A DNA stretch of 64,000 nt from NCBI GenBank assembly GCA_945897515.1, contig CAMDFO010000003.1, forward strand, positions 50,777-114,776, in the 5' to 3' direction. Below, in pieces: positions 52,349-58,428 of the stretch. Origin of the DNA: Rhodoplanes serenus (GTDB taxonomy: Bacteria > Pseudomonadota > Alphaproteobacteria > Rhizobiales > Xanthobacteraceae). The position numbers and the translations under genes are program-made. Each line of letters opens with the position of its first letter. Position 1 is the first letter of the stretch. Under the pieces are notes generated by a model. That model ran no database searches. It worked only from the letters and a program-made list of their open reading frames with translations, and was not told the origin of the DNA.

Positions 52349-52572
52349 GCGACCCACCGCAGCGAATCAGTTAAACGACGCAGCGTCGACGCGGCAATTC
52401 CAACCGCGCCGCGCTGCCATGTCGTCACGCAACCCGAGGCCGTGGGAAGTTTTCCCCTATTCCTTTGAAGTTCCGTGCATTTTCGCGCCAAGCCGCGAAC
52501 AAAGATCGGGATAAGTGACACCTGCGGTTGCCCCGGCGGTCGGGGCGATTCATTGTCGCCCGCGATACGGAT

Positions 52573-52590
52573 GGGCCCCGAGCGGGGCCC
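52573..52590. promoter_or_regulatory. 18-bp perfect palindrome GGGCCCCG-AG-CGGGGCCC just upstream of smc
   Basis: 8-bp arms with 2-nt spacer, 19 bp before the smc ATG. Confidence 0.5.
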
Positions 52591-52609
52591 CAATTGGAAT
52601 GATGCCGGC

Positions 52610-55600
52610 ATGAAGCTCACGCGACTGCGCCTGATCGGATTCAAGTCCTTCGTCGAACCGACCGATTTTCTGATCGAGCCGGGCCTGACCGGCGTGGTCG
52701 GGCCGAACGGCTGCGGCAAGTCCAACCTGGTCGAAGCGCTGCGCTGGGTCATGGGCGAGACCTCGTTCAAGTCGATGCGCGCCTCCGAGATGGACGACGT
52801 GATCTTCTCCGGCACCAACAACCGGCCGGCGCGCAACACCGCCGAGGTCGCGATCCGGATCGACAATTCCAAGCACGCGGCGCCGACCCAGTTCAACGAG
52901 CACGAGACCATCGATATCTCGCGGCGGATCGAGCGCGAAAAGGGTTCGCTCTATCGCATCAACGGCAGCGACGTGCGCGCGCGCGACGTCATGACATTGT
53001 TTGCCGACGCTTCGACCGGCTCGCGATCGCCGGCGCTGGTGCATCAGGGCCGCATCGGCGAGATCATCCAGGCCAAGCCCGAGCAACGCCGCCGGGTGCT
53101 CGAAGAAGCCGCCGGCATTTCCGGCCTGCACGCGCGCCGCCATGAGGCCGAACTGCGGCTCAAGGCGGCCGAGAGCAATCTGCTGCGCGTCGAGGACGTG
53201 GTGCGCCAGCTCTCCAGCCAGATCGATGCGTTGAAGCGCCAAGCCCGCCAAGCGGTGCGCTACAAGGCGGTCGCAGCCGACATCCGCAAGGCGGAATCGA
53301 CGCTCTATCATCTGCGTTGGATCGGGGCGAACGCCGAAGTCGCCGAGGCCGAGCGGGCCAAGGATTTGAGCGTCCGCGCCGTCGCGGAAGCCACCATCGC
53401 CCAGACCGAGGCCGGCAGGGGCCGCGAGGAAGCCCAGGCCGCGGTGCCGCCGCTGCGCGAAGCCGAGGCCCGCGCCGCCGCCGCATTGCAGCGCCTGATC
53501 AACGCCCGCGATGCGCTCGACGCCGAAGAGACCCGCGCCCGCGAGCGCATGGCCGAGCTCGACCGCAGGCTCGCGCAGTTGCAGGAAGACCTGGCGCGCG
53601 AGCGCGCGCTTGCCGCCGACGCCCAGTCGACGCTGGAACGGCTCGACGCCGAGGAAGCCACCCTCAAGCAGGAGGTGGCCGGCATCGTGCAGCTTCGCAC
53701 CGGCGTCGACGAGCGCGTCGCCACTGCCGAAGACGTGCTGCAAGCCGCCGAAAAGACCTTCAGCGAATTGACCGGCGCACTCGCCGACCTGACCGCGAAG
53801 CGCAACCAGCTCACCAACGCGTCCGCCGAACAGGCCGGACGCACCGCCCGCATCGAAAGCGAAATCGCCAACATCGAAGCCGGGCTTGCGGCCGCCGCGG
53901 AAAGCCGGCCCGATCTCGGCGCACTCGCCGCCACGCTCGATGAGGCGCAAGCCGCCGTCGCCGAGGCCGAACAGGCCGCGACCCTGGCCGAAGCCGCGCA
54001 TGTCGCGGCTCGCAAGGAACTGGAAGCTGCGCGAGCTCCGCTGACCGACGCCGAACGCGCGACGCAGCGGCTGGAGACCGAAGCCAAGACCCTGATGAAG
54101 CTGCTTGCCGTCGAGAGCCAGAATCTCTGGCCGCCGGTGATGGACAACATCCAGGTCGGCAAGGGCTACGAGAAGGCGCTGGGCGCAGCGCTCGGCGACG
54201 ATCTTGACGCGCCGGCCGATCCGTCGTCGCCGATGCGCTGGTCGGGCGCAACGCTCGATCCCGCCGATCCAGCACTGCCCGAGGGTGTAACGGCGCTGTC
54301 GCAGCACGTCACCGCGCCGCCCGAATTGGCCCGCCGCCTCGCCCAGATCGGCGTGATCGCGCGCGCCGACGGCCCGCGTCTGATCGCGCTGCTCAAGCCG
54401 GGCCAGCGGCTGGTTTCGCTCGAAGGCGACCTGTGGCGGTGGGACGGCTTCGCGGCCGATGCCCATGCGCCGACCGGCGCGGCGCGGCGGCTGGCCGAGC
54501 GCGGCCGGCTCGCGGATATCGACGGCGAACTGGTCACCGCGCGCGCCGAACTGGAAACGCGTCGCGCTCACGTGGAGAAGACGACGGCGGAACTCGCCGC
54601 CGCGGCGGCCGCCGAGAGCGCCGCGCGCGAGCGCAGGCGTACGACGCAGCGCGAGGCCGATGCCGCGCGCGAGCTGCATGGCGCGGCCGAGCGTGAAATC
54701 GCGCGCAATGCCGCGCGGGTGTCGGCGCTGACCGAGGCCAAGACCCGGCTGATCGCCGGCCGCGACGAGGCGCAGGCCGCCCGCCAGGATGCCGAGACCG
54801 CGCTGGCCGCCCTGCCCCCGTCGGCCGAGCTGGAAGAAAAACTTGCCGCCGTCCGCAGCGATATCGAAGGCAAGCGCATCGCCGCAGCCGACGTGCGCGC
54901 CGAGGCGCAGGCGCTGGCGCGCGAGGCCGAACTGGCCGACCGCCGTCTCAACGCCATCGGCGCCGACCGTACGCAGTGGAGCGAGCGCCGCGACAGTGCG
55001 AGCGCGCAAATCGGCACGCTGGAAACGCGTAACAGCGAGACCAACGAGGAGCGCGCCGCGCTCGCTGGCGCGCCAGCAGCCTTTGCCGAAAAGCGCCAGG
55101 TGCTGATCGGCGAGATCGAAGGCGCCGAAGGCACGCGCCGCGAGGCCGCCGACCGGCTGGCCGAAGCCGAGACCGTGCTGAACACCTTCGATCGCGCGGT
55201 GCGCGCCGCGCTCGAAGCGCTCGGCGCCGCCCGCGAGGAAGCGGCGCGCGCCGAAGAGCGCGTCGACGGCGCGCGGCGGCGGCTCACCGACATCGCCCAC
55301 GAGATCAAGGAAATTCTCGAGGTCGAGCCCGACGGCGTCGCGGCGCTGGCAGGCATCGAGTCCGACGCCACGCTGCCCGACGTCGCCAGCATCGAGGCCG
55401 ACCTGGAAAAGCTGCGGCGCGATCGCGAGCGGCTCGGCGCGGTCAACCTGCGCGCCGAGGAAGAGCTGGGCGAGATCGAAACCCAGCACACCACCCTCAC
55501 CGCTGAGCGCGACGATCTGGTCGAAGCCATCAAGCGGCTGCGCCAGGGCATCCAGAGCCTCAACAAGGAGGCGCGGGAGCGGCTCTTGACCTCGTTCGCC

Positions 55601-56059
55601 GTGGTCAACGGCCATTTCCAGCGGCTGTTTGCCGAGCTGTTCGGCGGCGGCACCGCGGAACTGCAACTGATCGAGAGCGACGATCCGCTGGAGGCCGGCC
55701 TCGAAATTTTGGCGAAGCCGCCCGGCAAGAAGCCGGCGACGCTGTCGCTGCTGTCCGGCGGCGAGCAGGCGCTGACCGCGCTGGCGCTGATCTTCGCCGT
55801 GTTCCTCACCAACCCGGCGCCGATCTGCGTGCTGGACGAAGTGGACGCGCCGCTCGACGACCACAATGTGGAGCGGTTCTGCGACCTTTTGGACGAGATG
55901 ATCCGCTCGACCGACACGCGCTTCGTCATCATCACCCACAACCCGATCACCATGGCGCGAATGAACCGGCTGTTCGGCGTGACCATGGCGGAACGCGGCG
56001 TCTCGCAGCTCGTTTCGGTCGATCTGGAGGCCGCGGTGAAGATCAGGGAAGCGGTCTGA
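52610..56059 (+). CDS. smc: Chromosome segregation protein SMC
   Basis: MKLTRLRLIGFKSFVEPTDFLIEPGLTGVVGPNGCGKSNLVEALRWVMGE, coiled coils, LLSGGEQALTALALIFAVFLTNPAPICVLDEVDAPLDDHNVERF. Confidence 0.97.
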   Translation: MKLTRLRLIGFKSFVEPTDFLIEPGLTGVVGPNGCGKSNLVEALRWVMGETSFKSMRASEMDDVIFSGTNNRPARNTAEVAIRIDNSKHAAPTQFNEHETIDISRRIEREKGSLYRINGSDVRARDVMTLFADASTGSRSPALVHQGRIGEIIQAKPEQRRRVLEEAAGISGLHARRHEAELRLKAAESNLLRVEDVVRQLSSQIDALKRQARQAVRYKAVAADIRKAESTLYHLRWIGANAEVAEAERAKDLSVRAVAEATIAQTEAGRGREEAQAAVPPLREAEARAAAALQRLINARDALDAEETRARERMAELDRRLAQLQEDLARERALAADAQSTLERLDAEEATLKQEVAGIVQLRTGVDERVATAEDVLQAAEKTFSELTGALADLTAKRNQLTNASAEQAGRTARIESEIANIEAGLAAAAESRPDLGALAATLDEAQAAVAEAEQAATLAEAAHVAARKELEAARAPLTDAERATQRLETEAKTLMKLLAVESQNLWPPVMDNIQVGKGYEKALGAALGDDLDAPADPSSPMRWSGATLDPADPALPEGVTALSQHVTAPPELARRLAQIGVIARADGPRLIALLKPGQRLVSLEGDLWRWDGFAADAHAPTGAARRLAERGRLADIDGELVTARAELETRRAHVEKTTAELAAAAAAESAARERRRTTQREADAARELHGAAEREIARNAARVSALTEAKTRLIAGRDEAQAARQDAETALAALPPSAELEEKLAAVRSDIEGKRIAAADVRAEAQALAREAELADRRLNAIGADRTQWSERRDSASAQIGTLETRNSETNEERAALAGAPAAFAEKRQVLIGEIEGAEGTRREAADRLAEAETVLNTFDRAVRAALEALGAAREEAARAEERVDGARRRLTDIAHEIKEILEVEPDGVAALAGIESDATLPDVASIEADLEKLRRDRERLGAVNLRAEEELGEIETQHTTLTAERDDLVEAIKRLRQGIQSLNKEARERLLTSFAVVNGHFQRLFAELFGGGTAELQLIESDDPLEAGLEILAKPPGKKPATLSLLSGGEQALTALALIFAVFLTNPAPICVLDEVDAPLDDHNVERFCDLLDEMIRSTDTRFVIITHNPITMARMNRLFGVTMAERGVSQLVSVDLEAAVKIREAV

Positions 56060-56608: not shown

Positions 56609-57598
56609 ATGATCTCGCTTCGCATGTTATGCTTGGCCGTTGCGGGCGCGTGGCTCGCGGCCAGCGGTTCGGCAGCTTTGTCGCAGACGTCATCGCAGAC
56701 TTGGCCGACACGGACGGTCCAGGTCGTCAGCCCGTTCACCGCGGGCAACGCCAGCGACCTGATCGGCCGCATCACGCTCGAACAGGTGGCCAAGCAGGTC
56801 GGCCAGCCGTTCGTGGTCGAGAACCGGCCAGGCGGCGGCGGGACCATCGGCGTGGGCGCGGTCGCCAAGGCCGAACCCGACGGCTACACCGTGCTGCTGC
56901 ACTCGTCGTCGTTCAGTTCGGCTCTGGTGCACCACAAGTCCCTGCCCTACGACACCCTGAAGGATTTCGCTCCGGTGATCCCGATCGGTATCCAGCCGGT
57001 GGTGCTGATCACCGCGCCATCGAAGGGGTTCAAGACCGTCGCCGAGCTGGTGGCGGCCGCCAAGGCCAAGCCCGGCGCGATGAACTACGCTTCCGCCGGG
57101 ATCGGCTCGACCTCGCACATGGCGGGCGCGCGGTTCCAGCACGCCGCCGGCTTCCAGGCCCAGCACATCCCGTTCCGCGGACCGGCCGAGGCGTTCACCG
57201 AGGTGCTCTCGGGGCGCATCGATTTCTATTTCCTGCCGCTGGCGCCCGCGCTGTCGCTGGTCCAGCAGGGCAAGGTGGTGGCGCTCGCGGTCGGCGCGGA
57301 CAAGCGCTCGCCCGACCTGCCGAACGTCCCGACCATGGCCGAAGCCGGCCTGCCGAACGCCGCCTACCACTTCTGGGGCGGGCTGTTCATGCCGGCCAAG
57401 ACGCCGCCCGCGATCATCAAGCGGCTGCACGAGGAGGCCGCCAAGGCCCTGGCCGAGCCGTCGGTGCGGGAGCGGCTGGCCAAGACCGCCACCTCGCCGA
57501 TGCCGATGACCCCGGAGCAATTCACGAAATACTTCCACGACGACGTGGCCTCCACGGTAAAACTGGCCAAGGAGACCGGGATGGCGCCGTCGAACTGA
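56609..57598 (+). CDS. Bug/TctC family substrate-binding protein (5)
   Basis: TWPTRTVQVVSPFTAGNASDLIGRITLEQVAKQVGQPFVVENRPGGGGTIGVGAVAKAEPDGYT. Confidence 0.92.
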   Translation: MISLRMLCLAVAGAWLAASGSAALSQTSSQTWPTRTVQVVSPFTAGNASDLIGRITLEQVAKQVGQPFVVENRPGGGGTIGVGAVAKAEPDGYTVLLHSSSFSSALVHHKSLPYDTLKDFAPVIPIGIQPVVLITAPSKGFKTVAELVAAAKAKPGAMNYASAGIGSTSHMAGARFQHAAGFQAQHIPFRGPAEAFTEVLSGRIDFYFLPLAPALSLVQQGKVVALAVGADKRSPDLPNVPTMAEAGLPNAAYHFWGGLFMPAKTPPAIIKRLHEEAAKALAEPSVRERLAKTATSPMPMTPEQFTKYFHDDVASTVKLAKETGMAPSN

Positions 57599-57663: not shown

Positions 57664-57688
57664 GGAACCAAACACGGGAAGCTGCGTT
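57664..57688 (+). promoter_or_regulatory. EcfG-type promoter GGAAC-N16-CGTT upstream of candidate sRNA
   Basis: GGAAC CAAACACGGGAAGCTG CGTT; exact consensus. Confidence 0.75.
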
Positions 57689-57695
57689 GAACCCC

Positions 57696-57778
57696 GTAAC
57701 CGTCGGGCGGCTCCCCCCTTACCCCCCGAACAGCCGTTCGACGAACCGACCCCAGGCTTCGGCCTGGGGTCTTTTTTT
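57696..57778 (+). ncRNA. Candidate stress-induced sRNA, GsrN-like architecture
   Basis: Stem GTCGGGCGGCT (57702-57712) / AGCCGTTCGAC (57732-57742) enclosing loop CCCCCCTTACCCCCCGAAC; followed by an intrinsic terminator; 5' end inferred from the promoter. Confidence 0.65.
57749..57778 (+). terminator. Intrinsic terminator ACCCCAGGC-TTCG-GCCTGGGGT-CTTTTTTT
   Basis: 9-bp stem, TTCG tetraloop, 7-T tract. Confidence 0.92.
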
Positions 57779-57864
57779 GCCGAACCCACAAACACCTGTG
57801 CAGGGCCGATCCCACCCGGGCGGTTTCTGCTAGGCTGTACGTCCCGTCCCCAGGAGCCAGTTCC

Positions 57865-58428
57865 ATGTCCACAACCGGCTGGATCGTTCTCGGAGTGATC
57901 GTCGTTCTCGTCGCCTGGATCGTCATGATCTACAACCAGCTCGTCGCCATGCGGCAGCGGGTCGGTCAGGCGTTCGCCGACGTGGATGTGCAGCTCAAGC
58001 AGCGGCACGATCTGATTCCCAATCTGGTCGAGACGGTGAAGGGCTACGCCGCGCACGAGCGCAGCACGCTCGAAGAGGTCGTCAAGCTGCGCAACACCGC
58101 CATGGCCGCCCAGGGTCCGGCCCAGCAGGCGGCGGCGGAGAACATGCTGTCCGGCGCGCTGCGGCAATTGTTCGCGCTTTCGGAGGCCTATCCGGACCTC
58201 AAGGCCAACGCGAACTTCCAGCAGCTCCAGGCCGAATTGAGCGACATCGAAAACAAGCTCGCCGCGGCGCGGCGGTTCTTCAACAACGCGGTCCAGGAAT
58301 ACAACACCGGCATCCAGCAGTTCCCGGCCGCGCTGTTCGCCCGGACGCTGGGCTTTGGCGAGCGCGAGTTCTTCGACGTCGGCACCGACCGGCCGACCTT
58401 GGAGAAGACACCGCAGGTCAAGTTCTAG
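57865..58428 (+). CDS. LemA family protein
   Basis: YNQLVAMRQRVGQAFADVDVQLKQRHDLIPNLVETVKGYAAHE, YNTGIQQFPAALFA. Confidence 0.95.
   Translation: MSTTGWIVLGVIVVLVAWIVMIYNQLVAMRQRVGQAFADVDVQLKQRHDLIPNLVETVKGYAAHERSTLEEVVKLRNTAMAAQGPAQQAAAENMLSGALRQLFALSEAYPDLKANANFQQLQAELSDIENKLAAARRFFNNAVQEYNTGIQQFPAALFARTLGFGEREFFDVGTDRPTLEKTPQVKF

Follow-up and report, generated by a model that had tools for sequence, protein, structure and literature searches.

What is encoded directly upstream of lemA in the window, the whole 64,000-nt stretch of DNA analysed here? The original prediction, made from the letters alone, read this interval as an unannotated small RNA (sRNA) gene with an EcfG promoter and a cytosine-rich loop, and likened it to GsrN. 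Our analysis establishes that a conserved, previously undescribed small RNA gene lies there. Its promoter, its loop, its conservation and its covariation all bear out that reading, whereas descent from GsrN does not follow.

Structure of the sRNA gene

The promoter GGAAC-N16-CGTT, the C-loop stem with its two G-U pairs and the terminator with its seven T's are all present in the sequence exactly where the prediction had placed them (Table 1). In the first hairpin, the stem GTCGGGCGGCT/AGCCGTTCGAC (57702-57712/57732-57742) is lengthened in the fold by an added C-G pair (57701/57743), and the loop, CCCCCCTTACCCCCCGAAC, holds two C6 runs. The terminator hairpin (57748-57771) is followed by T7 (57772-57778); its TTCG loop had been read correctly, but its stem, claimed to be 9 bp, has 10 bp in the fold. 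The RNA fold of the transcript reaches -42.6 kcal/mol (z = -5.7), which none of 200 shuffles equals, with nothing competing between the two hairpins and an ensemble energy near the minimum. Because ATG, GTG and TTG are all absent from 57695-57776, the sRNA contains no ORF, in agreement with the claim that no convincing one exists.

Table 1. Features of the sRNA locus and its downstream neighbour, in window positions
Feature	Position	Strand	Basis
-35 element GGAAC, EcfG-type promoter	57664..57668	+	sequence; present in 33/33 relatives examined
-10 element CGTT, EcfG-type promoter, 16-nt spacer	57685..57688	+	sequence; all 33 relatives examined have NGTT, 20 of them CGTT
Predicted sRNA transcript, about 80-84 nt	57695..57778	+	model R1 and its matches; start inferred ~7 nt past CGTT
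Target-display hairpin, 12 bp, 19-nt loop	57701..57743	+	RNA fold; covariation
C-rich loop CCCCCCUUACCCCCCGAAC, proposed pairing seed	57713..57731	+	near-invariant among close relatives
Intrinsic terminator: 10-bp stem, UUCG loop, U7	57748..57778	+	fold; covariation
lemA, downstream neighbour, linked but outside the RNA	57865..58428	+	Pfam PF04011, E 1.5e-58

Conservation and covariation

BLASTN finds the element in the same genus, with matches alignable over the whole length from promoter through terminator. A covariance model, R1, was built on six transcripts with the promoter left out, and it matched at E <= 0.001 in 134 of the 399 genomes of the window's family. Many of the weak matches look terminator-driven; the long, strong ones (55-97 bits) fall in the window's genus, in genus g58, which is most likely Pseudolabrys, and in a few other genera. 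The strong relatives that R1 finds are thus confined to the family, chiefly to the window's genus and Pseudolabrys. When the class as a whole was sampled, matches at E <= 1e-6 came from just three other genomes; these matches (37-38 bits) were terminator-driven and had no EcfG-type promoter. We set aside as terminator-driven noise the matches below about 40 bits that had no promoter (L131, L141-L144, L228-L230), and three matches of 41-50 bits with neither lemA nor promoter (L135, L137, L139) may represent something other than this sRNA.

A GTDB-wide scan for the promoter together with a C-loop returned 40 stretches, of which about 29 were alphaproteobacterial and 16 had lemA alongside, many of these lemA-linked records being Pseudolabrys. 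A class-wide scan for the promoter plus CCCCCCGA matched 12 of 387 genomes, about as many as its reversed control, so there was no clear enrichment. No Rfam family exceeded its threshold anywhere in the window; BcKCsr7, with 6C RNA the best sub-threshold match, reached 24.8 of 59 bits and was rejected as driven by the terminator or the C run. Our literature search found no paper describing this lemA-linked RNA.

Do the two helices show the marks of selection on structure? Over 34 distinct sequences, in an alignment fitted to the structure, which flatters pairing, 96.2% of cells were paired and 15 of the 21 pairs had changed on both sides. Such both-side changes occupied 84 cells, against a shuffled mean of 24.8 (0 of 500 shuffles as high), and sliding the partner by 1-3 columns left 1-17 cells, so that most of the signal was gone. 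The helix of the C-loop hairpin was 93.5% paired over the same 34 sequences, with both-side changes in 6 of its 11 modelled pairs; in the terminator, 9 of 10 pairs had changed in this way. A six-sequence MAFFT alignment agrees in direction with the structure-fitted result. The original prediction had staked itself on covariation in related genomes, and both helices do covary. The terminator sequence is highly variable through compensatory change and the C-loop is almost fixed, taking the form CCCCCCUUACCCCCCGAAU in most of g58.

The promoter and its sigma factor

Motifs of the GGAAC-N16/17-CGTT type fit the established EcfG consensus. The consensus of the corresponding SigT promoter has been described (PMC5869019). 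On its own, the motif is weak evidence: our genome holds 129 such sites, compared with 72 for the reversed control. Its conservation carries more. GGAAC-N16/17-NGTT, with a background rate of 1.8e-4 per position, stands 31-46 nt upstream in all 30 best R1 matches and in three lower-scoring matches that were picked for lemA linkage, and because R1 does not contain the promoter, this is independent evidence for the gene. Among these 33 relatives, the -10 element reads CGTT in 20, TGTT in 6, GGTT in 5 and AGTT in 2, and the spacer is 16 nt in 31 and 17 nt in 2.

Neither ecfG, nepR nor phyR was found in the window's own genome, an 88.9%-complete metagenome-assembled genome (MAG); NepR is present in 8 of 10 sister genomes of the same genus. 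An ECF sigma factor on another contig (G000:C32) was considered as EcfG and rejected: its identity is 39% and its neighbours differ (ORFs that by eye look fabI-like and anti-sigma-like), so it is not the primary EcfG. The predicted EcfG dependence is borne out as regards a conserved EcfG-type promoter, from which we infer that EcfG itself controls the lemA-linked sRNA.

Upstream of the promoter, some relatives carry an exact DnaA box, TTATCCACA, present as its reverse complement TGTGGATAA. Among 41 distinct upstream regions, 11 (loci L095, L097, L099, L108, L111, L134, L174, L184, L198, L203 and L204) have it 33-45 nt before the start of GGAAC, six of these at -34, a placement for which composition shuffles gave 0.01; these partly overlapping loci, 214.6 kb together, hold just 14 occurrences in total. 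The upstream region of the window's own sRNA has no TGTGGATAA. It is conceivable, if rather doubtful, that the sRNA takes two inputs, with EcfG transcribing it, DnaA or another TGTGGATAA-recognising protein modulating the same promoter from an upstream box whose distance hardly varies, and the two C6 tracts able to engage two G-rich sites. If so, replication state would be coupled to the general stress response.

The lemA neighbourhood

The window carries smc (52475-56059), then a small ORF and a gene for a TctC-type receptor (56609-57598), and after these the sRNA, lemA and an M48 peptidase gene. lemA lies downstream in 28 of the 30 top relatives, and the remaining two are at contig ends. At L138 (genome G157), the sRNA comes straight after what seems to be the end of smc; the TctC-type gene may therefore be an insertion in the window's lineage.

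A further C-loop RNA in the genus

The window's own genome encodes a second RNA of related design, here called type B (G000:C59:22961-23080, equivalent to L125:4962-5081), in which GGAAC-N16-CGTT precedes a hairpin with the loop CACCCCCCUCCCCCCGACAG beside otsB and otsA. A model of it, R2, finds type B in 14 genomes, 7 within the genus and 7 elsewhere in the family, with an EcfG-type promoter at 12 of the 14 matches; in three genomes, G001, G005 and G009, phyR-nepR-ecfG is about 1-6 kb distant from it. It shares with the window RNA the promoter type, the loop CCCCCCUCCCCCCGACAG and a similar stem, GGGCGG/CCGUCCGG. It differs in an extra 5' hairpin, in that the C-loop hairpin itself stands before the U-run in several genomes, and in its place, beside otsBA and near the GSR locus in sister genomes rather than at lemA. 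R1 detects it weakly (24-39 bits). Type B, which did not appear in the literature searched, is the positional equivalent of GsrN in this genus.

In several genera, GSR loci have other C-loop RNAs nearby, again behind such promoters. In G003:C41 (L233:2482 onward), a further GGAAC-type site, about 1 kb downstream from type B, is followed by CCCCCTCCCC and may mark a third C-loop RNA. Two other stretches, in Mesorhizobium sp. L-8-3 (L197:7372-7490) and in a member of the Rhizobiaceae (L181:5340-5453), combine an EcfG-type promoter, a hairpin whose C-rich loop includes CCCCCCTTACCCCC and a terminator; neither lemA nor GSR genes were found in the stretches examined.

Is the window RNA GsrN?

GsrN is CCNA_R0081 of Caulobacter crescentus (Tien et al. 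2018, PMC5869019); it needs SigT, and its six-C loop pairs with G-rich leaders (PMC5869019). GsrN is further characterised by being processed to a stable 5' isoform and by an influence of Hfq. Outside the Caulobacteraceae, GsrN has been recognised by nearness to the GSR locus, phyR-nepR-ecfG (PMC5869019). The window RNA has the EcfG/SigT-type promoter directly upstream and an exposed C6 run in a 5' loop, and in the sister genomes the NepR locus and the sRNA lie on different contigs or, in the single-contig G004, megabases apart.

From the GsrN target list we deduced a loop like CGCCCCCCGACUUGA, and a pattern made from it matched in one of 295 genomes, that of the alphaproteobacterium G701. The match (G701:C7:148336-148395; L257/L258) has a promoter, a terminator and the loop GACGCCCCCCCGACTTGA, with phyR about 0.5 kb away and phyR-nepR-ecfG adjoining. 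Because these GSR neighbours were not in the search pattern, this RNA is probably a real GsrN. Its C tract sits with an inner hairpin within one long stem. Neither R1 nor R2 matches at this site, a reference that is itself a putative GsrN, recognised by a loop complementary to published GsrN targets and by its place beside phyR-nepR-ecfG; a nearby R1 match (L258:9869-9927) was discarded as a terminator beside phyR.

Function of the sRNA

We consider that the gene probably encodes a stand-alone stress sRNA, transcribed with EcfG and acting in trans through its C tracts. RNA polymerase with EcfG would transcribe about 82 nt, from GGAAC-N16-CGTT to the U7 terminator; the first hairpin would keep the two C6 tracts single-stranded within its loop; and during the general stress response these tracts, chiefly UUACCCCCCGAA, would pair with G-rich stretches of mRNAs, altering their translation or stability. 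The general-stress promoter together with the cytosine-rich loop suggests that the sRNA tunes mRNAs in stress in a GsrN-like manner.

Which mRNAs might these be? The original prediction named katG mRNA as a target of GsrN, and in this genus katG was not upheld as a target of the sRNA: the katG leaders with a clear start (G000, G003, G008 and G009, several further genomes having less certain starts) have no G-run longer than 3, and their predicted pairing is weak. Pairing energies between lemA leaders and the loop scatter around those of shuffles, the single strong case (L097) not being shared, and lemA was likewise rejected. With katG leaders devoid of a G-tract and lemA leaders pairing no better than shuffles, we identified no target, and the lemA link looks positional.

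We considered that the RNA might instead be the 5' leader of lemA, acting in cis; the terminator would then attenuate conditionally, and the C-loop hairpin would be the sensor or anti-terminator. The recurrence of lemA downstream, which in the window begins 87 nt past the terminator, would fit such an arrangement, as would a simple scan of the stretch from terminator to lemA, in which no sigma-70-like promoter was found. An attenuator is nonetheless unlikely here. First, the terminator stem is strong and covaries throughout. Second, no competing inter-hairpin structure appears in the fold, whose ensemble energy is near the minimum. Third, the lemA leaders hold no conserved complementarity to the loop. 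Fourth, there is no lemA at the related type B RNA, which has the same promoter type and lies next to otsB, not far from the GSR locus.

A true GsrN orthologue, relocated from the GSR locus like gsrN of C. crescentus, also has features in its favour. gsrN is known to occupy different positions, the EcfG-type promoter, C6 loop and terminator are all present, and the C tract has a 3' flank, CCCCCCGA(A/C)C, similar to the target-deduced GsrN loop CGCCCCCCGACUU. We nevertheless judge orthology quite improbable: both covariance models miss the probable GsrN of G701, whose structure differs, and the GSR-neighbouring place in this genus is taken by a separate C-loop RNA.

The loop could also bind a protein or sponge another RNA, a reading compatible with the failure to find an mRNA target and with the conservation of the entire loop, including UUA and GAA, among close relatives; we give it little credence, in that GsrN, the C-loop sRNA of closest known architecture, pairs with mRNAs (PMC5869019). 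Finally, a chance arrangement with no gene, to which the commonness of the promoter consensus (129 genomic sites) might point, is virtually impossible to reconcile with promoter, hairpins and synteny conserved in dozens of genomes, with covariation.

What is known beyond the Caulobacteraceae about post-transcriptional control in the general stress response of Alphaproteobacteria has come mainly from where genes lie and from a small number of transcriptomes (PMC5869019). The sRNA described here adds a covarying, promoter-linked family with a searchable covariance model, present in Pseudolabrys. One genus can, moreover, carry two EcfG-promoter C-loop RNAs, and target sharing between them therefore becomes a testable question.

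Comparison with known C-loop RNAs

Two known RNAs invite comparison. The 6C RNA (Rfam RF01066) is actinobacterial. Like the window RNA, it shows a C6 run in the loop of one hairpin and has a second hairpin, resembling a terminator, after it; it differs in belonging to another phylum and in having no EcfG, and we rejected it as a family for the window RNA, whose score of 22.8 bits falls short of the gathering score of 47 and is driven by the C run or the terminator. With regard to GsrN, the window RNA differs in that both its C6 tracts share one simple hairpin, which has no inner hairpin, in its linkage to lemA, in sharing its genus with a GSR-neighbouring C-loop RNA and in the absence of the katG target site. 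The "GsrN-like" label is thus apt for architecture and probably for mechanism, whereas the lemA locus and the lack of a covariance-model match to the probable GsrN leave family membership, and hence identity with GsrN, unsupported. In architecture, both RNAs combine the promoter of a general-stress sigma factor, a C6 tract left unpaired within a structure at the 5' end, an intrinsic terminator and a similar seed, CCCCCCGA.
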